A DNA stretch of 64,000 nt, from NCBI RefSeq assembly GCF_023093535.1, contig NZ_CP095757.1, forward strand, positions 1,736,001-1,800,000. Reading direction: 5' to 3'. Position 1 is the stretch's first letter. Each line of letters starts with the position of its first letter. Source of the stretch: Halovivax limisalsi (lineage in GTDB: Archaea; Halobacteriota; Halobacteria; Halobacteriales; Natrialbaceae). A program made the translations under genes and the position numbers. Below are positions 22,364 to 49,062 of this stretch, piece by piece. The notes below the pieces were generated by a model, which saw only the letters and a list, made by a program, of their open reading frames with translations, was not told where the DNA came from and searched no databases.

Positions 22364-25039
22364 ATGGACCGACGTGACTTGCTCAGTTCGCTCGGTGTCC
22401 TTGGAACGGGCGTGGCAGTCGGAGCCAGTGGACGGAAATTACACGACTCTAATACTCAAGAGGAATCGAAATATGTGAGCAACTTCCAGGATGTGGTTAA
22501 TGCGGTGGTTCCGGTCTGGAATTCAGAAGCCAAGCGACAGTGGTTGCGAATCCCACAAGGTGAAAGTGTCGGCAAACACCTAATTAGTAATGGAAACCTT
22601 TCATATTTTGGTGCTACATACGAATCAAACGCTGATGCGAGGGATGGGGACCCTGTATGGCGCCACAAATTTGCACTCACTGGAAACTGGTATTCTATAG
22701 ACGAAGGGGTCGCTGTTGACGAAGAACCGACCGAGTGGTCTTGTGAACCTACGCTCCAGCCGGTGGCTAATCGGGAATTCAACATGGGTCATCGAGAAGG
22801 TGCAAAGTCGATTATGAAGGTAACTCCTAACAGCAGCAGTTCACTATCATTGTCGCCGTTATATGGCCAGAATACACTCGGGATAATCGGTCCTGAAAAT
22901 TTCACCTCTTTTCTTGACACTTCATTAGAAAAGGCAGAAATGGCCGAGAGCAAGCTCGCGGAAGAAATTGTAAATTCGGGGGTGAACCCGGAGAATATTG
23001 ACGTCGAAACCGCACTGGCAAATTATGGCGGCGAAGTCGCCAGTGAGCGAGGAGAAGCCCTCTCGACGACTAACTTCGGGGATGTGATCTCGCTGGGACT
23101 CGGCGTTGCCGCCCTCTCGACGACGACCTCGGCATTTACGATGGCTGGCTTGGCATATGTGGCTGGAACGATAATTCTTGATTATATCAGTAGCCCGCCA
23201 CCAAACCGGTTTGATCCGTCCGAGGTATCCTTTTCCTTTAGACCTACCGAAAAAGGTCCTGGCCAGGCGCATTTCCTGGTCTTTGATGTCCTTGTGGAAC
23301 CGAATACCGGCGGATCGGTTACTGTGCAGTCGACGTTCGAATTTGGAGACGGATATGGACTCGTCGATTCGTACTTTTGGGGAATCGATATTGAGCCTCT
23401 TCCGGATCCGACCCTTATTGAACAGTCATGCGTAAATTCGGACACGTTGTCGAAAAACGGCGCATCAATACCTGATACATCTGGTTATCGCAACGACTGG
23501 ACTTGTAATTATGAGGATGAGGACCCTATTACTACGGTCTTGCAGAGTCATATGGCGGTTGAGGGCAGTAGCGGACCCCATCCCGAGATTATAGAACCGA
23601 GGCCAGATGACAAATTTATAGTTGGCGAGCCAATAAAATTACGGACGGACGAAAGTGAAAACGTTATCGATTCGCGTTGGTTCATTCAACACAGCGACGA
23701 TGGTTGGTGCCGGGTCAGCCGGTTTTCTCGGACACTAGAATCTCACACGCCGTCGACGGGAGGTTACATGACCGTTGCCCTTGTGCAACGTAACGCGGCG
23801 GGGGTGAGCGGAGTCGACACCGTAGAAATATGGGTCGATGAATACCCAAAACTGACGAGCTTAGACCTTGATTATACTGTTCCGGTAGGCGAGACGACGA
23901 CGATCTCGGCGGCTGTCGAAGCGGAATCCGACGTAACCTTCGCTTGGGATGTCGGTCCGGTGGACAGCAGCGCATCTGATCACCGAGCTTCCGATGGTAC
24001 AAAGCGTAATGTTGACGAAAATGATGGGGGTGTCGAAGAATATGAAGATGAATATTCGTACGTACCAACCGTTACTGGAAAACATCAGGTATCCTTGCAA
24101 GCAACGGACGTAGACAACAATACGGTACAGGCAAAGGATTACTTTACTGTAACGTCCCAGCCGGAGGGGCCGGAAATAATCGAATTCGAAATCGGTTGTT
24201 ACACGGTTCCAGTTGATGAGTCGGTCACGATCGCTGCGACGGTGGAGTCGGTGACCGAACCCGACTGGTCCATTGATGTGAGCCTGTCGGATACCGTGGA
24301 CTCGTCGGCACGAAGTTCGGAAACAAAATTTGTTGGGGACGGTATTTACGAAAAGGAATGGCAGTACACTCCCTCTGAAGCTGGAAAATATGACGTCGAA
24401 CTAGCTGTTGAGGATGGCAACGGTAATACCGATAGCGTATCCGACTTCTTTGAAGCCAAGGATACTCTTTATAAACCCAATATTAAAGAGTTGAATATTA
24501 CGCCATATGACCCCGATGTTGGGGAATCAGTTGATATTTCGGCTGCTGTTGAATCTGGATCGGAGGTGAACTTTTTCTGGGATGTGGGTCCATCGGATAC
24601 GATTGAGAGTAAGGCAGTGAATCCTACGAGCACCGAATCTTGCACCGATACGTACCAAGATGAGCAGGAATACGTTCCCTCGCAGCCCGGGAAATATGAT
24701 GTCACTCTCACTGTTACAAACCAATTGAACCAACAGGATGAAGCGTATGACTTCTTTAATGCGAATGAGGATGATGACGGCGGCGGGGATCAACCAGAAC
24801 CGCCAGAAGTTTCTATTTCTGGGCCAGATTCCCTCCTTCCCGGTGATACTGCTACATATACTGCAGATGTAGCGGCTGGATCAGATCTTTCGTTCAATTG
24901 GGATGGTGACGTCAGCGGAAGTGGATCTTCGATCACAACCAGCTGGGATGACCAAGGTGATAAATATATAGAAGTAGCCGCCGAGAACGATGTGGGTGAA
25001 GATCTCGCCACGAAAACAGTAGATGTAAGTTGGAATTGA
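22364..25039 (+). CDS. Exported 891-residue protein with tandem PKD/Ig-like repeats
   Basis: The N-terminus MDRRDLLSSLGVLGTGVAVG is a twin-arginine signal without a lipobox. Residues about 30-400 match no family I know and include a long hydrophobic stretch (about 245-280, SLGLGVAALSTTTSAF onwards). From about residue 405 there are five beta-sandwich-like repeats of 90-105 residues. The middle ones open with V(D/G)E(S/T) and TISAAVE-type strands, contain FxWDVGP, and close with Y(V/T)P...GK(Y/H)xVxLxVxD, as in PKD domains. The protein ends VDVSWN with no PGF-CTERM anchor. The gene is clearly AT-richer than its neighbours with different codon use, pointing to horizontal transfer. A cell-surface or secreted binding role is likely; the ligand is unknown. 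Confidence 0.8.
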   Translation: MDRRDLLSSLGVLGTGVAVGASGRKLHDSNTQEESKYVSNFQDVVNAVVPVWNSEAKRQWLRIPQGESVGKHLISNGNLSYFGATYESNADARDGDPVWRHKFALTGNWYSIDEGVAVDEEPTEWSCEPTLQPVANREFNMGHREGAKSIMKVTPNSSSSLSLSPLYGQNTLGIIGPENFTSFLDTSLEKAEMAESKLAEEIVNSGVNPENIDVETALANYGGEVASERGEALSTTNFGDVISLGLGVAALSTTTSAFTMAGLAYVAGTIILDYISSPPPNRFDPSEVSFSFRPTEKGPGQAHFLVFDVLVEPNTGGSVTVQSTFEFGDGYGLVDSYFWGIDIEPLPDPTLIEQSCVNSDTLSKNGASIPDTSGYRNDWTCNYEDEDPITTVLQSHMAVEGSSGPHPEIIEPRPDDKFIVGEPIKLRTDESENVIDSRWFIQHSDDGWCRVSRFSRTLESHTPSTGGYMTVALVQRNAAGVSGVDTVEIWVDEYPKLTSLDLDYTVPVGETTTISAAVEAESDVTFAWDVGPVDSSASDHRASDGTKRNVDENDGGVEEYEDEYSYVPTVTGKHQVSLQATDVDNNTVQAKDYFTVTSQPEGPEIIEFEIGCYTVPVDESVTIAATVESVTEPDWSIDVSLSDTVDSSARSSETKFVGDGIYEKEWQYTPSEAGKYDVELAVEDGNGNTDSVSDFFEAKDTLYKPNIKELNITPYDPDVGESVDISAAVESGSEVNFFWDVGPSDTIESKAVNPTSTESCTDTYQDEQEYVPSQPGKYDVTLTVTNQLNQQDEAYDFFNANEDDDGGGDQPEPPEVSISGPDSLLPGDTATYTADVAAGSDLSFNWDGDVSGSGSSITTSWDDQGDKYIEVAAENDVGEDLATKTVDVSWN

Positions 25040-26565: not shown

Positions 26566-28476
26566 ATGCCACGACGGGCCTTTCGACCGTTGAAGCGACG
26601 TGCTCTATTAAAAACCTCCGGTGCAGCTGGCATTGCTGCGTTAGCTGGCTGCACCGGCGGCGGCGACGGGAGCGATGGATCGGACGGCGGTGATGGCGGT
26701 GATCCGAGCGAGGAACTTCCGGACGTCGAGCTGTACGATGCAGACGGAAACCGGATCGAGCCGCTACTGATTTATGACGCCGGGAGTTCCAACGCGGAGG
26801 ACATCGCCGCCGAGATGAAACGGAATCTCGAATCGATCGGCGTCAACCTCCAGACGGAGGCTCGGCCGGAGGTGCTCGGCCAGGACTTCAACTCCGAGCC
26901 GTTACCGGACGCGAATCCGGAGGAGTTCGAGTGGGGGCCTGTGGGCTACAATGCCGGACCGCCGGACAAGACCCGGACCGTTTACCCCTGGGACCTCCTC
27001 ATTGGAATTCGAGCCAACTCGTATCCGCGAACCCCCGGCGACACCGACACGTTCTGGCAGAAAGATTCGGCTGTCAACGCCTACGGTTACGTTCCCGAGG
27101 CCGATCTGAATTCGATGTACGAGGAGTTCCGTAACTCCACCGATCAGGAGGAACGTCAGGATCTCATCGATCAGATCATGGGGACGCTAACCGAGGAGTT
27201 GCCGGCGAACTTCATGTCCCAGAGTCTCGACTTTTATGGCTTCCAGAACGACATCAATACGACGGACGATTTCAACGCCTACGGTGCGGAGCTGTCCCAG
27301 ATCGAACGGTACCGTAACGATCAGACGGTCGGCGGCGACTACATCCAGCTGGAGGGAACGCCGTTATCGACTCTCCTCCCGACGGAAATTTCCGATGACA
27401 ACTCCGCGATGCGGGTCGCGCTCATGTCCGACGGTGCCTACGCCATTCGAAAGGATGACGAGGTCATCCCGCTTCACATCGGCATCGAGGACTCCGGCGA
27501 TTCGACGGTCTGGGTTTGTACGGTTCGGGACAACCTGCAATTCGGCCAGTCCGCGGACGGAACCGACTACGGTCAGATGACGGCCGAAGACTGGGTGTTC
27601 CAGCTTGAGAACCTTCACGCCGTCGGGTACGACAGCCCTGAAAACGTCGAACTCTGGGACGGTTCGAGCCCGCCGAGCGAGAGCATCAGTTCGTATAGCG
27701 CGGTCGAGAACGTCGAACAGACCGGTGAACTGGAGTTCCAGCTGGAACTACCGGAAGCAGATCCGCTATTCCCGCTCCGACCGGTCATCTGGGGCGAAAT
27801 GGTCCTCCCGAAGGCGTTGTACGAAGCGTACGCTCCGGACGCGCAGGCACTTCGGGAATCGACCGAGATTCAGGAGTTTACCTGGACCGGCAACCTCGGC
27901 CCGTACCAGTACGAGGACCGCGTCGCCGGCGCCGCAGGGTCGTTCACGACCACTCGAAACGACGAGTACTACATGCGCGAACACACGGAGGGAAGCAACG
28001 TCAAGGATATGGACGAGGCCTTCGTGGACGCGCCGTACTTCGAGCGGTACCAGTTCAACAACGTTCCCGAGGATTCCTCGCGCGTCGAGCAGTTGCGAAA
28101 CGGGGAAGGAGACGAGATGCTTCTACCGACCGACAACATCGCGGAGTTCCAGCAGGCAGTCGAATCGGTCCGCGTCGAGAAACAGCGCGTACCGTGGATC
28201 AGCTTCCTGTTCTTCAATCAGCGATCCAACGGGAGCATCCTCTCACGGGAACGCGACGGACGCGAGGCGATGGCGCTGGTCATCGACAAGCAGACGATTT
28301 CGAACGATATCCAGCAAGGTTACACCGAACCCGCCGTCACGTTCCAGCCGACCTGGTCGAACTGGTACAACGAGGACGCGGTGAACGTCTACGGAGTCGA
28401 TATCGGCACGGAAGAAGTCGAGGAGGCGCGCGAGCTGCTCCGGCAGAACGACAACTTCGAACTCGACGAAGTCTGA
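26566..28476 (+). CDS. Peptide-type ABC transporter solute-binding lipoprotein, apparently circularly permuted
   Basis: A 636-residue SBP_bac_5 family protein. A twin-arginine motif (KRRALLK) leads to lipobox LAGC with Cys29, then an acidic Gly/Asp/Ser linker (30-50). Next, residues about 50-250 resemble the C-terminal lobe of ordinary members: IGVNLQTE, then NAYGYVPEADLNSMYEE and DQEERQDLIDQIMG. Only after this does the usual N-terminal part begin (about 254: GGDYIQLEGTPL, STVWVCTVRDNLQFG, TAEDWVFQLENL). The protein stops after the helix EEARELLRQNDNFELDEV, which normally precedes the segment placed at its front. Function: capture of peptides or related solutes at the outer face of the membrane for the permeases downstream. 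First gene of a five-gene operon; the next starts 43 bp later. Confidence 0.85.
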   Translation: MPRRAFRPLKRRALLKTSGAAGIAALAGCTGGGDGSDGSDGGDGGDPSEELPDVELYDADGNRIEPLLIYDAGSSNAEDIAAEMKRNLESIGVNLQTEARPEVLGQDFNSEPLPDANPEEFEWGPVGYNAGPPDKTRTVYPWDLLIGIRANSYPRTPGDTDTFWQKDSAVNAYGYVPEADLNSMYEEFRNSTDQEERQDLIDQIMGTLTEELPANFMSQSLDFYGFQNDINTTDDFNAYGAELSQIERYRNDQTVGGDYIQLEGTPLSTLLPTEISDDNSAMRVALMSDGAYAIRKDDEVIPLHIGIEDSGDSTVWVCTVRDNLQFGQSADGTDYGQMTAEDWVFQLENLHAVGYDSPENVELWDGSSPPSESISSYSAVENVEQTGELEFQLELPEADPLFPLRPVIWGEMVLPKALYEAYAPDAQALRESTEIQEFTWTGNLGPYQYEDRVAGAAGSFTTTRNDEYYMREHTEGSNVKDMDEAFVDAPYFERYQFNNVPEDSSRVEQLRNGEGDEMLLPTDNIAEFQQAVESVRVEKQRVPWISFLFFNQRSNGSILSRERDGREAMALVIDKQTISNDIQQGYTEPAVTFQPTWSNWYNEDAVNVYGVDIGTEEVEEARELLRQNDNFELDEV

Positions 28477-28519: not shown

Positions 28520-29584
28520 ATGAAGTGGTATATCTTACGTCGATTGGTGTGGGCGGGGTTCGCAACGGCGATTATTCTCACCGTCACGTTCGTTCTGATG
28601 GATCAGACGCCGAAAACGCGCATCATGGAGGCGCAGATGCGGGCGGCGATGGCCGGTGAAAACCTCACCACGGCGGTACAGGCCGAGCGCCAGCAAATGG
28701 GGCTCGACATGCCGTTTCACGAACGGTACCTGCAGTTCATGACGAACGTCTTCGAGGGTGACTGGGGCTGGTCGATCGAATACCAGAAGCCGGTGATCGA
28801 CGTCATGAAGCGTGCGATCCCGTACTCGCTGATGTACGGGTTCCCGGCGATCATACTCTCGACGATTCTCGGGACGATCATCGGCCTCTACTCGGCGGTC
28901 AACCAGTACACGAAGAAGGACTATACCGCCACGTTCTTCGCCTTCTTCGGGCTCAGCATTCCGAACTTCTGGTTCGGGATCATCATGCTCCTCGTGTTCT
29001 CGTCCTGGCTCGGGTGGGTGCCCTACGAGTTCAACGGAAAACTGGCACTCGCGGCGGACGGGAGTTTCACCTGGCTCGAGACGACAGACGCGAGTCACCT
29101 CGCGTTCGTCGGAGATAACTTCGAGGGCGAGCGATACGTGGGTATTCTGAGTCCTGCGAACCTGAAGCAATTGCTCCTGCCGACGTTCGTCATCATGACG
29201 ACCTCGATTGCGACGGTGATGCGATACGCACGCGCCGAAGCGCTGGAGTACGTCGACGCAGACTTCGTCAAGACTGCGAAAGCCAAGGGCGTGAGTGCGC
29301 GTCGGATCACCGCGAAGCACATCTTCCGCCCGGCGTCGATCCCGCTGATGACGATCTTCGTCGGTCGGATCCTCGGTATCGTCCTCTTTGGGTCGTACCT
29401 CGTCGAGGTTGTCTTCGGCATCCCGGGGATCGGACTCGCCTCGTACGAGGCGATCGTCCGCCAGGACACGAGCCTGGTGGCGATCACCATTCTCATTCCG
29501 ACGTTTCTGGCGATCGTCGGCAACCTCGTCGAGGACATCATGTACGCGGTACTGGATCCGCGCATCGACTACGGTGATCGATAA
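28520..29584 (+). CDS. Peptide-type ABC transporter permease (DppB-like)
   Basis: A 354-residue membrane protein with six predicted helices, the first near residues 8-28. The EAA loop DADFVKTAKAKGVSARRITA (about residues 244-263) docks the ATPase. The DppB/OppB N-terminus (MKWYILRRLVWAGFATAIIL) is typical. With the next gene it forms the translocation pore for solute delivered by the binding protein. Its TAA stop overlaps the ATG of the next gene (TAATG), so the two permeases are coupled. The length is slightly above the usual 310-340 because of an external loop around residues 170-205. Confidence 0.93.
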   Translation: MKWYILRRLVWAGFATAIILTVTFVLMDQTPKTRIMEAQMRAAMAGENLTTAVQAERQQMGLDMPFHERYLQFMTNVFEGDWGWSIEYQKPVIDVMKRAIPYSLMYGFPAIILSTILGTIIGLYSAVNQYTKKDYTATFFAFFGLSIPNFWFGIIMLLVFSSWLGWVPYEFNGKLALAADGSFTWLETTDASHLAFVGDNFEGERYVGILSPANLKQLLLPTFVIMTTSIATVMRYARAEALEYVDADFVKTAKAKGVSARRITAKHIFRPASIPLMTIFVGRILGIVLFGSYLVEVVFGIPGIGLASYEAIVRQDTSLVAITILIPTFLAIVGNLVEDIMYAVLDPRIDYGDR

Positions 29585-30819
29585 TGAGCGAACCGACTGA
29601 CTCTCCGGCGGTCGACGACGGTCTCGAGGAGCCGCGAGAGACGTTCGAGTCCGTCGACTGGGACCAGATCGACCTCGCGAACAGCGGCCGATCGCCCGGC
29701 CAGTACCTCTGGATGGGCTTTCTCGCGATCTGGCTGTTCGGCGTCCTGTTCGACATCTACTCGCAGTTCGTCTCCGCGGCTGCAGAACCCGCCGAACTCC
29801 CGGTTATCGGAACCGTCGCCCCGGAAGACTGGCTCTGGGTCTTGACGCTCGCCTGTCTCGTCTACTACGGCGTCAGACCGCTGTATCAGAGCCCCCGGAT
29901 GACGATGCACTACTGGAAACAGTTCCGGAAGAACAAGGCCGCCGTCATCAGCGGGTTGTTCCTTTCAGTGATCCTGGTCGTCGGGGGGATCGGTGCGCGG
30001 GTCTTGCCGTTCCCAGAGCGGAACCCGGGCTTCGAGGAGTTGCCGCCGTTCTGGATGTCGATCGAGAAGTATCACGTCGGGAATAACTGTCCCGGCGGCA
30101 CCACGATGGAGGCCGGTGTTGAGATCTGCCACGGTAGCATGCAGTACCCGCTCGGGACGACTGGATCGGGCGAGGACATCCTGCTGCTGATCGTTCACGG
30201 GATGGAAGTGAGCATGATGGTCGGCCTGGCCGCGACGTTACTCAGCGTCGTCGTCGCGACGGTCGTGGGACTGTCTGCCGCCTACTTCGGCGGGCTCGTC
30301 GACGAGGTTCTGATGCGCTACGTCGATCTCCAGATGACATTCCCGTCGTTCTTCCTCTTCCTGTTGCTGGCCTACACGATCGGTGGAAGCCTCTTCATCC
30401 TGATCATGATCTTCGGCCTGTTCGGCTGGGGTGCAACGGCGCGAATCATCAGGGCGGAGGCGTTACAACGCAAAGCAGAGCCCTACATGCAGGCCGCAAA
30501 GAGCGCCGGGGCGACGAGTAAGTGGTCGATCCGACGCCACCTCCTGCCGAACACGACTAACAGCATCATCACGGCCGCGACGCTGACGATCCCGAGCATC
30601 ATCCTCGCGGAGGCGGCGATCGCGTTCCTGGCCCTCTCGGATCCGACGATCCCTTCGTGGGGTCGCGTGATCGCGGACGGGCGGGGATCCCTGCAAAGTT
30701 CGTGGTGGATCTCGACGTTCCCGGGTATCTTCCTGTTCTTTACGATCCTGGCGTTCAACTTCATCGGCGACGCGCTGCGCGACGCGCTCGACCCGCGACA
30801 CGGAGGTGCCGAGTCATGA
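29584..30819 (+). CDS. Peptide-type ABC transporter permease (DppC-like)
   Basis: A 411-residue membrane protein, partner of the DppB-like permease. The N-terminus is extended by about 100 residues with two extra hydrophobic helices (about 42-62 and 80-98) before the usual OppC-type first helix (about 122-145, AVISGLFLSVILVVGGIG). An external loop of about 60 residues with two Cys (NNCPGG and EICHGS) follows. The EAA loop is AEPYMQAAKSAGATSKWSIR (about 299-318). The end of the protein is the conserved ALRDALDPRH. It overlaps the next ATPase gene by 4 bp (ATGA). Confidence 0.92.
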   Translation: MSEPTDSPAVDDGLEEPRETFESVDWDQIDLANSGRSPGQYLWMGFLAIWLFGVLFDIYSQFVSAAAEPAELPVIGTVAPEDWLWVLTLACLVYYGVRPLYQSPRMTMHYWKQFRKNKAAVISGLFLSVILVVGGIGARVLPFPERNPGFEELPPFWMSIEKYHVGNNCPGGTTMEAGVEICHGSMQYPLGTTGSGEDILLLIVHGMEVSMMVGLAATLLSVVVATVVGLSAAYFGGLVDEVLMRYVDLQMTFPSFFLFLLLAYTIGGSLFILIMIFGLFGWGATARIIRAEALQRKAEPYMQAAKSAGATSKWSIRRHLLPNTTNSIITAATLTIPSIILAEAAIAFLALSDPTIPSWGRVIADGRGSLQSSWWISTFPGIFLFFTILAFNFIGDALRDALDPRHGGAES

Positions 30820-31910
30820 GCACGGAATACGGCGACCGAGACGGTGTACAGGGCGCGACGGGAGCGACGGCGGCGGCCGATTCGCTCCTCTCGGTGACCG
30901 ACCTTCACACGTACTTCGAGACGGATGCCGGCGAGGTGAAGGCCGTCGACGGCGTCTCCTTTAGCGTCGACCGCGGCGAAACCGTCGCCATCGTCGGCGA
31001 GAGCGGGTCCGGTAAGACCGTCACGAGCGAGTCGATCACGCGGCTCTTCAAGAGTCCGCCGGGCTTCATTCCGCAGGGTTCGGTCAGGGTCAACGGACGC
31101 GAGGTGACCGAGATGAGCGAATCCGAACTTCGGAAGCTGCGCGGCGGCGAGGTCAGCCACATCTTCCAGAACCCGCAGGGCGCGCTCAACCCGGTCTACT
31201 CGATCGGCTGGCAGATCCGCGAGGCGATCACGCTCCACCAGGACCTCTCCGAGGAGGAAGCCACCGAACGAGCCGTCGAATTGCTGACCCAGGTCGGGAT
31301 TCCGGAGGCCAGTTCCCGGCTCGACGACTACCCGCACGAGTTCTCCGGCGGGATGAAACAGCGGGTGATCATCGCGATCGCGCTGGCTTGCGAGCCGGAC
31401 CTCCTGATCGCGGACGAGCCGACGACGGCGCTGGACGTGACGATCCAGGCCCAGATCCTGAAGCTACTCAACCGGCTCCAGGACGAACTCGACATGGGCG
31501 TCCTGTTTATCACCCACGACCTGGGCGTCGTCGCGGAGGTCGCCGATCGCGTCGTCGTCATGTACGCCGGCAAGGTGATGGAGCGCGGATCGGTGTACGA
31601 GATCTTCGAGAACCCGTCGCACCCGTACACGCGAGCCCTGCTCGAGTGCCTGCCCGGGAAGGGGAATCTCGGCGGGATTCCTGGCGAACTGCCCGATCCG
31701 CTCGATCCGCCGGAGGGCTGTCGGTTCGCGGATCGGTGTCCGTACGCCATCGACGAGTGCACCTACGGCGAGCAGCCGCCGGAGCACTCGGTGCAGGGTT
31801 CGGCCGATCACGAGGTCTCCTGCGTCCACTTCCGATCGGACATGGATCCGAACACGGTCCTCGAAGCCGATCGCGATCTGACCGCTTCGCCCGGGGGTGA
31901 GCCTCGATGA
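30816..31910 (+). CDS. Peptide-type ABC transporter ATP-binding protein (DppD-like)
   Basis: A 364-residue ATPase. Walker A is GESGSGKT (61-68), the Q-loop Gln118 is in [12 protein letters not shown], and the signature FSGGMKQR lies at about 175-182. Walker B is [13 protein letters not shown] and the H-loop His is in [10 protein letters not shown]-terminal oligopeptide-transporter domain follows with the Cys pattern [14 protein letters not shown] and a last Cys near VSCVHF, spaced as in canonical members. It powers uptake through the two permeases, working as a heterodimer with the next gene product. The ATG at 30816 overlaps the permease stop; a longer in-frame extension is Arg-rich and rejected. 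Confidence 0.95.
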
Positions 31911-33259
31911 GTCGATCGACCGATCCGCTCCTCGAGGTGCGCGACCTGAAGAAACACTACCCGATCACCCAGGGATTCATGGACACGGAGGTCGGTCGGG
32001 CCCGCGCGGTCGACGGAATCAGCTTCGAGATCCAGCGCGGCGAGACCTTCGGGATCGTCGGCGAGTCCGGCTGCGGCAAGTCGACGGCGGCGACGTCGAT
32101 GATCCGCCTCGAGGAGCCGACGAGCGGCCAGGTCATCTTCGACGGCGAGGACATCACCGAGTACTCCGCCGAGGAGCTCCGGCGCTTCCGCCGAGAGGTC
32201 CAGATGATCTTCCAGGATCCCGATTCGAGTTTCGATCCCCGGATGAGCGTCGGCGAGTCCGTCGCCGAACCCCTGACGGTTCAGGGGATGACCGACAAAT
32301 CCCGTCGCCGGGAGATCGTCGCCGACCTGCTGGAGCGCGTCGGCCTCTCGGCGTCGGACATGGAGCGCTATCCCCACGAGTTCTCCGGCGGGCAGAAACA
32401 GCGCATCGGCCTGGCGCGAGCGCTGTCGGTCAACCCGCAGTTCATCGTCGCCGACGAACCCGTCTCGGCGCTCGACGTCTCCGTTCAGTCGGAGATCCTC
32501 CGGCTGCTCGACGAGTTCCAGCGAAACTTCGGCCTGACGATGCTGGTCATCAGCCACAATCTCGGCGTCGTGCGCGAGATCTGCGACCGGGTCGCCGTGA
32601 TGTATCTGGGCGAGTTCGTCGAGGTGGCGCCGACGGAGGAGCTGTTCACGAATCCCCAGCACCCCTACAGCCAGGCGTTACTGTCCTCGATTCCGACGCC
32701 CGACCCGCGCGAACGCGGGATGGGCCAGGAGCTGAAAGGCGACGTGCCGGACCCGTCCGCGCCGCCGGCCGGCTGTCGGTTCCACACCCGCTGTCCGAAG
32801 GTGATCCCCCCGGACGGGATCAACCTCCCGCAGGCGGAGTGGCGGAACCTGCTTCACTTCCGCAAGCAGGTCGAAGGCCCCGGGCTCGACCTCGAAAGTA
32901 TCGTCAAGATCCACGCGATCGAGGCCGACACGGTCGACGACGCGACGGAGGTATCGCCGTCGGACTTCGATCTCGAAACGCTGAATCGCTGGATTCGCAC
33001 CGAGTTCGACCTCCCGACGCAGCTATCGGATACCACCGCCGAGACGATCCTCGCGCACGCGATCGAGTCGATCGTCGACGACGAGCCGGACGCGGCCGAG
33101 AGCATTCTCGCGGAGAACTTCACGACGCCGTGTGAGACCCAGCGGCCGGCCCTCGAATCCAAGGGTCCGGGCCGCGAGTCGGCGTGTCTGCTCGAAAACC
33201 CGACGGAGCCGATCCAGTCGGGAATCGGCAGCCAGCCGTCACCGGGGTCGTCGGACTAA
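31907..33259 (+). CDS. Peptide-type ABC transporter ATP-binding protein (DppF-like) with C-terminal insertion
   Basis: A 450-residue ATPase and the last gene of the operon (ATGA overlap with DppD). Walker A is GESGCGKST, the Q-loop is in [12 protein letters not shown], the signature is FSGGQKQR and Walker [13 protein letters not shown]. The oligopeptide-transporter C-terminal domain starts [12 protein letters not shown] (about 285-297), but the next family cysteines come only at about 408 and 426 (CETQRPAL and SACLL). About 110 helical, acidic residues are inserted between the second and third Cys. The same insertion site is used in the other DppF-like protein of this window. The rest of the ATPase is normal. 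Confidence 0.94.
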
Positions 33260-33829: not shown

Positions 33830-34402
33830 TCAGTCGTCGCCGTCGGCGTCGACGATGACGACCTCGCCGTCGACGACGTCGACGTTGACGAGCGTCTTGA
33901 CGTGGTAGCCCGCGTCGTCGACCGCGTTCTCGCCGCCGACTTTCTTGATGACGGCGACGGTGTCGACGACCTCCGCGCCGATCTCGTCGAGCGCGGCGAG
34001 CACCGAGGCCAGCGTCCCGCCGGTCGAGAGCACGTCGTCGAGGACGAGGACCCGTTCGTCGGCCCGCACGTCGTTGATGTACATCTCGTTCTCCGAGTAG
34101 CCGGTCCGCTGTGCGATCGCGACCTCGCCGTCGAGTCCGTACTCCCGCTTGCGGATGACCGTCAGGGGAAGGTCGGTCATGAGCGAGACGGCCGTCGAGA
34201 TGTGAATGCCCATCGCCGCCGGCGTGACGATCCGGTCGACCTCGTCGAGGCGAGCCTTCCGGATGATCCGGATGACGATCTCGCGGAGCAAGCCCGGATC
34301 GAGTTTGGGGACGCCGTCGCTGACGGGGTGGACGAAGTACTGGTATCCGTCGTCTTTCTCGACGATGGGGGCCTCGCGCAGTGACCGCTCCAGTTGATCC
34401 AT
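33830..34402 (-). CDS. hpt: Archaeal HGPRTase-like phosphoribosyltransferase
   Basis: A 190-residue enzyme of the archaeal Hpt type. The PRPP-binding loop is [13 protein letters not shown] (about residues 105-117), preceded by the flexible segment [35 protein letters not shown] is the first phosphate loop. It is expected to convert hypoxanthine/guanine (or adenine) and PRPP to the nucleotide for purine salvage; haloarchaeal members are often annotated HGPRTase-like because activity is not proven for all. I chose the ATG at 34402 since the upstream extension is Arg-rich. Confidence 0.9.
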
Positions 34403-34576
34403 GCCGAGAGTGCTTCCGAGACGGAGTAAAAGCTGACGATGCGAGCGCGATTCCGCCCTGCGCACCCGCACGTGCTCGATGGAACCGAGGTAACTCGCGT
34501 CGATCGCGCGAGCGACCCACGTAGACGCGACGGGAGTTGCGACGAGCGGGGAGTCCGCCGCCGGGTGCCGAGTCCG

Positions 34577-47148: not shown

Positions 47149-49062
47149 CTAGGCTTCGTCTTCGAGGTTCGTCTGCCAGTCCATGTAGTAGCCGTTGTTC
47201 TCGCCGGGCATGCCGCTCGTGTCGGTGTTCTTCGGCTCGAGCGGGTAGAGACCGTAGGCGGCGATCGGGAAGCTCCATCCCCAGCCGATCCCATACATCT
47301 CGAGGCTGCCGTCGTACCCCTGCTGAATCAGCGTACTGAACTGCGTCGGCTCCACGCTGGCGTTGACGCCGGTCCCGTTGAGCTTCGACTGGATGTTCTC
47401 GGCGACGTTGATCGCCGTGGCGTCGTCGGCCGTACTGATCGTGAGTTCGTACGGATCGTCGGGCGTGAAGCCCGCCTCCTCGAGGACCTGCGTGGCGCCC
47501 TCGATGTCGGTCTCGTTGGCGCTGTAGGGGTGGTTGTCGACGAATTCCTGGTGGCCTTCGTCACCGGTCGGCCAGATCGACGGCGGCGTGAAGCTGAACG
47601 CCGGAGTGGGAACTCCTTTGTAGAAGTTGTCGACGATCTCCTGGCGGTTCATCACGTAGCCGACGGCCTTTCGGACGGCCTCCGGCGTGTTTGCGACGTT
47701 GAACGCGTAGTAGGAGACCGCAAGCGCATCGATGCCGAGGTAATTGACGGTCTCTCCGTTCTCTTCGATCTGGTACGTTCCGACCTCCCGGTCGAGATCG
47801 TCCGTCGTCTCGACGGTCTGCTGGTCCGGGTTGAAGACGTTGGTCGGGATCGGGAAGATGTCGAAGTTCTGCTCGACGACGTTCGTCCAGATCGGTTCCG
47901 GCTGTTCGACGATCATGTAATTGATCGCGTCGAGCTCCGGACCGCTGCCGTGGTAGTTGTCGTACGCGGACAGCTGGACGTCCTCTTCCTGCGTGAAGCT
48001 CTCGAGGATGAAGGGGCCGGTCCCGTTGGCCGCTTCGCCCGTCGACATCTGCGACTGCGTGTACTCCCCGTCCACGTTGGGGACGTCGTCGACCAGCCCG
48101 GCCGGCGTCATGACGTACGAGCTGTAAGAGAGGATCTCGAGCGGGTTCGGGTGCGGGTTCTGCAGCGACATCTCGACCGTGTAGTCGTCGACGGCCTCGA
48201 CACCGAGGGAACCCGGCGCAACGCCACCTTCCTCGCCCTCCTCGTACTGGAGGCCCATTCCGACGGGCATGGAGATGACGAAGCTGGTCATCAGGCTGTT
48301 CGGCGATTCGGCGGCGCGTCGCATCGTGTACACGACGTCCTCGGCCGTGAACTCCGATCCGTCGTGGAACTGGACGCCCTGCTTGAGCTCGAAGGTGAGG
48401 ACGGTGTTGTCCTCGTTCGACTCGAAGTTCTCGACGAGAACGTTCTCGATTTCCAGCGTGCCGTTGCGGAAGTTCGTCAGCTTGTCGTAAATCTGGTGAA
48501 TGACCCGTCCGGAGTAGACGTCGGTCGACGTGATCGGGTCGAGCGTGCTGAACGTGTTGATCTGTTCGTTGAGCTGATTGTCGGAGCGGTCGACCGTCGT
48601 CTCGTTGTGCTGCATGTACCGGGTGCCGAGAACGCCGGTCCGCGGCACATCGACGACGTCGTACCAGTACCGACGGGTCTTTTGGTGGAACTGGGGGTGC
48701 CACACGGCGGCTTCGCGGGCGGCCTCCTCCATGTCCACGTAGCGCTCGTTGCGCTCTTCCTCCGCGTCCGGACCGGTGTTCTCCGTAACGAAGTCCCACG
48801 CGGCCTGGGCCTTGTCTGCCGGCGTCGCGAACTCCTGCTCGTCACCGCCGTCTTCACCGTCTTCGCCGTCTTCGCCGTCACTGCCGTCACTCCCATCGCT
48901 GCCGTCACTACCGTCGCCGCCGTCCTCGCCGTCTTCGCCGTCGTCACCGTCGCCGAAGAGGGCCGAACAGCCGGCGAGTCCCACCGACGCACTCCCACCA
49001 AGGAGGGCGAGCATTTGCCGACGCTTGCTATCCACATCTTGCCGATCTGCAGTATCGGACAT
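47149..49062 (-). CDS. Peptide-type ABC transporter solute-binding lipoprotein, apparently circularly permuted
   Basis: A 637-residue SBP_bac_5 protein. Twin-arginine KRRQMLALLGG leads to lipobox LAGC with Cys32. An unusually long Asp/Gly/Glu/Ser linker (38-75) follows. Residues about 79-160 (AQAAWDFVTENTGPDAEEER, MEEAAREAAVWHPQFHQ, YWYDVVDVPRTGVLG) correspond to the extreme C-terminal end of ordinary haloarchaeal members. The usual N-terminal part starts only near residue 168 (INTFSTLDPITSTDVYSGRV), continues with LKQGVQFHDGSEFTAEDVVY, and the protein stops at NNGYYMDWQTNLEDEA, just where that front segment would normally follow. Function: capture of peptide-like solutes outside the cell. 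First gene of the minus-strand operon. Confidence 0.87.
   Translation of the reverse strand: MSDTADRQDVDSKRRQMLALLGGSASVGLAGCSALFGDGDDGEDGEDGGDGSDGSDGSDGSDGEDGEDGEDGGDEQEFATPADKAQAAWDFVTENTGPDAEEERNERYVDMEEAAREAAVWHPQFHQKTRRYWYDVVDVPRTGVLGTRYMQHNETTVDRSDNQLNEQINTFSTLDPITSTDVYSGRVIHQIYDKLTNFRNGTLEIENVLVENFESNEDNTVLTFELKQGVQFHDGSEFTAEDVVYTMRRAAESPNSLMTSFVISMPVGMGLQYEEGEEGGVAPGSLGVEAVDDYTVEMSLQNPHPNPLEILSYSSYVMTPAGLVDDVPNVDGEYTQSQMSTGEAANGTGPFILESFTQEEDVQLSAYDNYHGSGPELDAINYMIVEQPEPIWTNVVEQNFDIFPIPTNVFNPDQQTVETTDDLDREVGTYQIEENGETVNYLGIDALAVSYYAFNVANTPEAVRKAVGYVMNRQEIVDNFYKGVPTPAFSFTPPSIWPTGDEGHQEFVDNHPYSANETDIEGATQVLEEAGFTPDDPYELTISTADDATAINVAENIQSKLNGTGVNASVEPTQFSTLIQQGYDGSLEMYGIGWGWSFPIAAYGLYPLEPKNTDTSGMPGENNGYYMDWQTNLEDEA
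48838..48955 (-). repeat. Low-complexity codon repeat encoding the acidic linker
   Basis: Imperfect GGC-GAA-GAC and GGC-AGT-GAC triplets repeat along the linker codons (plus strand reads GTCTTCGCCGTC and GTCACTGCC units). This encodes a run of DGE and DGS motifs behind the lipid anchor and is prone to slippage. Confidence 0.8.

Follow-up and report, generated by a model that had tools for sequence, protein, structure and literature searches.

The gene at positions 26566–28476 (forward strand) of a 64,000-nucleotide stretch of Halovivax limisalsi DNA (the window) encodes a 636-residue solute-binding protein (SBP), a family-5 (cluster C, SBP_bac_5) receptor whose chain is naturally circularly permuted. 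The block that is C-terminal in ordinary members (block B) comes first in this chain and the usual N-terminal block (block A) comes second. The initial annotation of the window had proposed a permutation for this one protein; the permutation itself is confirmed, but its scope was understated, because the order of the two blocks has switched several times, in multiple clades and at nearly the same site.

The Pfam profile PF00496 (length 368) finds the encoded chain at 113.2 bits, above its gathering cut-off of 32.4 bits, but as two stretches in swapped order, the best of which places residues 308–627 on profile positions 11–275. The rear block by itself scores 104.6 bits, and the front block by itself gives no SBP match in this search. 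Only once the protein is rotated does a single unbroken stretch appear, covering profile positions 11–360 at 121.9 bits. The swapped order of the stretches places the protein as a permuted branch of SBP_bac_5 rather than a canonical member, and no collinear full-length alignment, the outcome named in advance as contrary to a permutation, was found. Pairwise alignment to a canonical relative (L025) gives a collinear score of 631 and a score of 927 for the best of all rotations, which starts exactly at the joint between the blocks. A set of 23 non-redundant canonical relatives from haloarchaea has both blocks the other way round, with the long block ∼31–39% identical, and this excludes a chance resemblance. 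The front block is 28–36% identical to the C-terminal block of the canonical relatives. This homology and the rotation test rule out a deletion or an unrelated extra domain at the front, and residues ∼50–250 are, as had been claimed, C-terminal-type blocks placed first, with the N-terminal-type block beginning only near residue 254.

The position of the break can be read from Bacillus subtilis AppA (1xoc). When a profile built from 42 permuted proteins is placed on AppA, the correspondence is circular: positions 230–589 fall on AppA residues 13–342, 28–87 on 345–404 and 122–222 on 409–509. The break therefore lies near AppA residue 343–345, in a loop after a helix, which we take to belong to lobe II judging from the OppA/DppA domain layout. 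In canonical relatives the homologue of EEARELLRQNDNFELDEV runs directly into the homologue of window-protein residue ∼53, and the terminal helix of the chain is thus the one that normally precedes the first block, as initially described. Homologous blocks are swapped, the old termini are joined and the new termini lie inside the old chain, which together define a natural circular permutant. The protein does not belong to Cluster Bc (TpMglB-2 type), since its Pfam and PDB matches are all to family 5 or to nickel/peptide receptors. The parts of the gene, with the evidence for each, are as follows.

26566..28476, +: circularly permuted SBP_bac_5 (cluster C) solute-binding lipoprotein, 636 residues (sequence, PF00496 search, rotation test, profile-to-1xoc mapping)
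26566..26652, +: twin-arginine translocation (Tat) signal peptide (KRR) and lipobox LAGC, Cys29 (sequence; other members are laid out alike)
26653..26715, +: Gly/Asp-rich linker from the lipid anchor to block B (sequence; predicted local distance difference test (pLDDT) score <50 where the mature chain begins)
26716..27315, +: block B, residues ∼51–250, the usual C-terminal block, comprising the second part of lobe II and the return to lobe I (rotation and block comparison, 1xoc mapping)
27292..27333, +: joint of the old C- and N-termini, ERYRNDQTVGGDYI (comparison with canonical relatives; model pLDDT 62–74)
27325..28473, +: block A, residues 254–636, the usual N-terminal block (PF00496, rotation and block comparison, 1xoc mapping)
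28408..28443, +: C-terminal helix, residues 615–626, the new C-terminus, which abuts block B in canonical relatives (comparison with relatives, model)

The Tat motif reads KRRALLK and the lipobox ALAGC, with Cys29 as the lipid-anchor cysteine. The end of the joint resembles the linker end of canonical lipoproteins, for example RTVGGNYI in L029.

An AlphaFold model of the permuted protein has a pLDDT of 88.4 and a predicted template modelling score of 0.81, as compared with 92.1 and 0.88 for a canonical relative, and the joint is its sole internal low-confidence stretch. Of the 556 residues aligned between the rotated permutant and the canonical protein, 86.5% have matching secondary structure. 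Foldseek aligns the canonical model with 1xoc over 576 columns at template modelling (TM) scores of 0.73/0.83 and the permuted model over 390 columns at 0.43/0.50 (the second value by target length in each case). This aligner is sequential, so the low score is expected for a permutant and is unusable as proof.

The gene heads an ordinary Opp/Dpp-type operon of two permeases and two ATPases with an oligo_HPY tail, and the first permease gene begins 43 bases past its stop codon:

28520..29584, +: permease 1, DppB/OppB-like, BPD_transp_1 (domain search)
29584..30819, +: permease 2, DppC/OppC-like (domain search)
30813..31910, +: ATPase 1, ABC_tran and oligo_HPY (domain search; start codon inferred)
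31907..33259, +: ATPase 2, ABC_tran and oligo_HPY (domain search)

Together with the export signal, this arrangement is that of a cluster C receptor of an ATP-binding cassette (ABC) importer. The operon is flanked upstream by a gene for a putative Tat-exported 891-residue protein with PKD domains (22364–25039, +) and downstream by one for a phosphoribosyltransferase-domain protein (33830–34471, −).

An assembly error, frameshift or pseudogene, combined with a chance likeness of the front segment, could in principle mimic such a permutant. We consider the probability of an artefact of this kind negligible, because the genome lies on a single contig, the leader and stop are intact, and dozens of orthologues with the same order occur in independent genomes under purifying selection, with non-synonymous to synonymous substitution ratios (dN/dS) of 0.05–0.23 in permuted pairs. 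The initial annotation had suggested a search for such homologues and had held that the gene is not broken. Its account of the open reading frame (ORF), coordinates, signal and lipobox is accurate, and every motif it quoted is present in the sequence.

Relatives of the window protein were collected from 292 haloarchaeal genomes and a scan of genome contigs, and both block orders are present among them. A first classification gave 20 non-redundant permuted loci, to which genus g27 added 10; upon wider sampling the subfamily of the window protein comprised 42 permuted and 46 canonical non-redundant proteins. A broader PF00496 survey searched 13 genomes, 12 of which had matches, at ∼100 loci in total. 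About 32 of these matched the profile only up to position ∼257–303, and block B precedes block A in all 30 proteins that were read (25 survey loci, the window gene, L233, L234, L235 and L153). About a third of the SBP_bac_5 candidates in the 12 genomes thus look permuted. Four of the 10 SBP_bac_5 genes found in the H. limisalsi genome are permuted; besides the window gene these are L233, L234 and L235 (contig 1, positions 197347, 1691910 and 1694681), receptors of other subfamilies. The window itself holds an internal control:

47149..49062, −: second SBP_bac_5 protein (L231), canonical order (PF00496 profile positions 1–362 in one stretch)

Permuted receptors are also found, through one-piece full-length matches, on alphaproteobacterial plasmids of Nitratireductor, Ketogulonicigenium, Neorhizobium and Roseomonas. 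These SBP_bac_5 proteins (L284, L285, L286 and L287) have no lipobox, and the annotated ones adjoin permease genes; plasmid records with annotation name them just 'ABC transporter substrate-binding protein'. WP_113156578.1 is an alphaproteobacterial permutant. A further permuted receptor (L179:1233-2996, −, genome G549) carries a C-terminal PGF-CTERM anchor and has a canonical relative in the same genome. A plasmid search with L179 gave only two-piece matches among the matches listed, and the one examined (L288) is canonical.

To ask how often the order has switched, trees were built from re-ordered sequences, so that block order has no influence on them. Three order changes are forced in a tree of 53 proteins, and four in a tree of 88 proteins, the best version of which has five. 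A tree of 94 proteins spanning many family-5 subfamilies has eight changes in its best version, seven of them forced by well-supported branches, although this was a short search with support only from the Shimodaira–Hasegawa-like approximate likelihood ratio test. Approximately unbiased (AU) tests were run on a 48-protein subset, with groups named after the trees were seen. They reject a single clade of all permutants (difference in log-likelihood 655, p ∼1e-152) and likewise the clades A+B (p 3e-4) and C+D (p 1e-5). Group C also has a distinct breakpoint; its chain ends ∼28 residues earlier and the corresponding helix sits N-terminally, after the lipobox.

A single ancient permutation, scattered by later reversions or horizontal transfer, is therefore unlikely. 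It draws some support from group G, which is ancient and common to haloarchaea and Alphaproteobacteria, and from group A, where a permuted and a canonical clade are sisters. Label changes by themselves carry no direction of gain or loss; for groups A and B, one gain plus one reversion is as parsimonious as two gains. Against it, in addition to the AU tests and the group C breakpoint, group D and the Archaeoglobus-like group are nested in canonical clades on recent branches, and the group D operon is collinear with that of its canonical sister. For groups C, D and E the data already point to permuted clades deep within canonical ones, with distinct joint sequences, and these three are best read as gains.

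The recent switches provide matched pairs. In group D, the permuted L150 and its canonical sister L144 have blocks 77% and 71% identical, a permease 90% identical and collinear operons. Their branch lengths in the 88-protein tree are equal (0.155 and 0.156), and the permutant is thus not evolving faster. Within the joint of L150, ESAGLPEDIEEPPAVEGSYNSV matches the mature N-terminal linker of the canonical protein, SGEQGIPEETDELPSVSGSYDTV, and is a relic of the former lipoprotein N-terminus. In an Archaeoglobus-like genus, from another family of the phylum, three genomes have the permuted gene and four the canonical one; L177 and L180, which have opposite orders, share blocks 86% and 85% identical. 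In this genus the permuted SBP gene (L177, L178 and L182) points away from its permease genes; in neighbouring genera the canonical relatives run in the same direction as theirs.

We hold with high confidence that the whole is best explained as a lipid-anchored Opp/Dpp-type receptor whose chain has been permuted repeatedly, probably by way of duplication. On this reading the gene codes for the Tat-exported, lipid-anchored SBP of an ABC importer of Opp/Dpp type, in which a short linker joins the old C- and N-termini, neighbours in lobe I, and new termini open in a lobe II surface loop that leads from a helix to the following strand (AppA ∼343–345). Given the ordinary predicted cluster C fold and operon, ligand capture through lobe closure and the usual docking on the permeases would be expected. 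The single architectural change would be that the membrane tether enters lobe II rather than lobe I. The low dN/dS, the intact operons and the conservation of the partner permease speak for a functional receptor, and the permuted protein most likely functions, on this sequence evidence, as an ordinary lipid-anchored ABC-importer receptor. In Escherichia coli DppABCDF, R383 and D436 of DppA bind the peptide, and both lobes are in contact with the scoop motif of DppB (PMC12136057). Counting from the break near AppA 343, the equivalents of R383 and D436 would both lie in block B.

The most likely route would be an in-frame tandem duplication followed by trimming. The leader peptide must remain N-terminal, so trimming must remove the inner signal as well. 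If permutation proceeds by duplication, fused tandem intermediates are expected (PMC3320104). A haloarchaeal receptor of 1,197 residues (L289:3614-7204, −, G002) has the order A-B-A-B, with repeats of 557 residues that are 68% identical, a single Tat-like leader and, between the repeats, a short linker that carries no further signal peptide. By its sequence it resembles the expected intermediate. Around L016, L151 and L158 the open frames are very long; they were rejected as fusions, being GC-rich run-ons upstream of normal genes. The other of the two standard permutation models (PMC3320104) has the gene split in two and rejoined in the opposite order, but the existence of the tandem receptor speaks against it, and we consider it improbable here. 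A set of 308 block-bearing ORFs in 282 loci yielded no intact split pair of blocks. Its sole case of both subfamily blocks in separate ORFs (L104/L140) is a decayed gene that a premature stop interrupts, and the remaining ORFs with block B only are at locus edges or are weak partial matches. L140 (G006) was rejected as a split intermediate: this canonical gene has decayed and shows an in-frame stop and a damaged front part. A transposase-like sequence lies just upstream of this decayed copy (L140:7100-8851, genus g27).

It is also conceivable, although we think it rather doubtful, that the permuted topology is adaptive, the shift of the tether from lobe I to lobe II altering orientation or strain in docking. 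Tethering was put forward by Brautigam et al. as one conceivable explanation of why TpMglB-2 has a permuted topology (PMC4990184). Consistent with such a role, independent switches converge at nearly one site, 29 of 33 permutants match a simple lipobox pattern (three of the other four have an SAGC/GAGC cysteine) and tethering via lobe II would likewise result for one switched protein whose anchor is a C-terminal PGF-CTERM. However, the lipobox is equally frequent in canonical relatives (31/35), and neither the group D permease, barely altered, nor the equal branch lengths of permuted L094 and canonical L095 (0.155 and 0.156) favor adaptation.

Three points weigh against parts of the explanation that we prefer, repeated permutation by duplication of a lipid-anchored receptor: (i) the shared fold is a prediction, drawn from model confidence, matching secondary structure and homology; (ii) the tandem A-B-A-B protein is of a different subfamily from every permutant seen, and so proves only that such an intermediate can exist and persist and (iii) the alphaproteobacterial permutants, without a lipobox, are by sequence not lipoproteins, so tether relocation cannot be a general reason for the switch.

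Natural permutation is usually inferred between distant relatives, long past the event, whereas opposite-order orthologues here are up to 85% identical. Such pairs let one ask how a leader-bearing secreted protein permutes and why one site recurs, and make the question of topology or tether position in ABC import approachable. Repeated swaps, even within one genus, render a rarely seen mode of protein evolution directly testable. Linear-profile annotation and sequential structure searches overlook a sizeable class of receptors, in which the Pfam match stops at ∼285 with ∼200 unexplained residues ahead of it. A wider proposition seems to us evenly poised, namely that prokaryotes commonly and repeatedly permute cluster C receptors at a single hot site, apparently without harm, with about a third of receptors in sampled haloarchaea unrecognised permutants, and that it proceeds via tandem duplication and trimming, perhaps favored by tether relocation. 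We found no report of a permuted cluster C or SBP_bac_5 receptor in the open-licence literature, although CIRPIN lists thousands of unnamed permuted pairs (PMC12667903), among which a cluster C case could be present. The unusual features are the recurrence, the reused site and the recent matched pairs of permuted and canonical receptors.

The protein is like AppA (1xoc), DppA (1dpe), OppA and NikA in that both blocks are homologous across Pfam positions 11–360, and it shares with cluster C receptors the predicted secondary structure and the SBP–permease–permease–ATPase–ATPase operon. It differs from canonical members in that its blocks are rotated and its termini lie in lobe II rather than lobe I; no permuted chain is present among the PDB matches listed in searches with permuted profiles or proteins. 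Cluster B has a known natural permutant among its SBPs, TpMglB-2 (Tp0684) of Treponema pallidum, the proposed 'Cluster Bc', which is likewise a lipid-anchored ABC-importer receptor and binds its ligand normally (PMC4990184). TpMglB-2 has a cluster B (type I) fold with N-lobe strands 1–3 shifted to the C-terminus, whereas the window protein is of cluster C with a break in lobe II. The TpMglB-2 phylogeny treats a single topology family (PMC4990184), whereas cluster C shows repeated switches and same-genus pairs in both orders. As with DNA methyltransferases and saposin/swaposin (PMC3320104), permutants are accompanied by tandem-duplicate intermediates, but unlike in those systems the SBP leader must stay N-terminal, and some of the switches are recent enough for orthologous operons to be compared.
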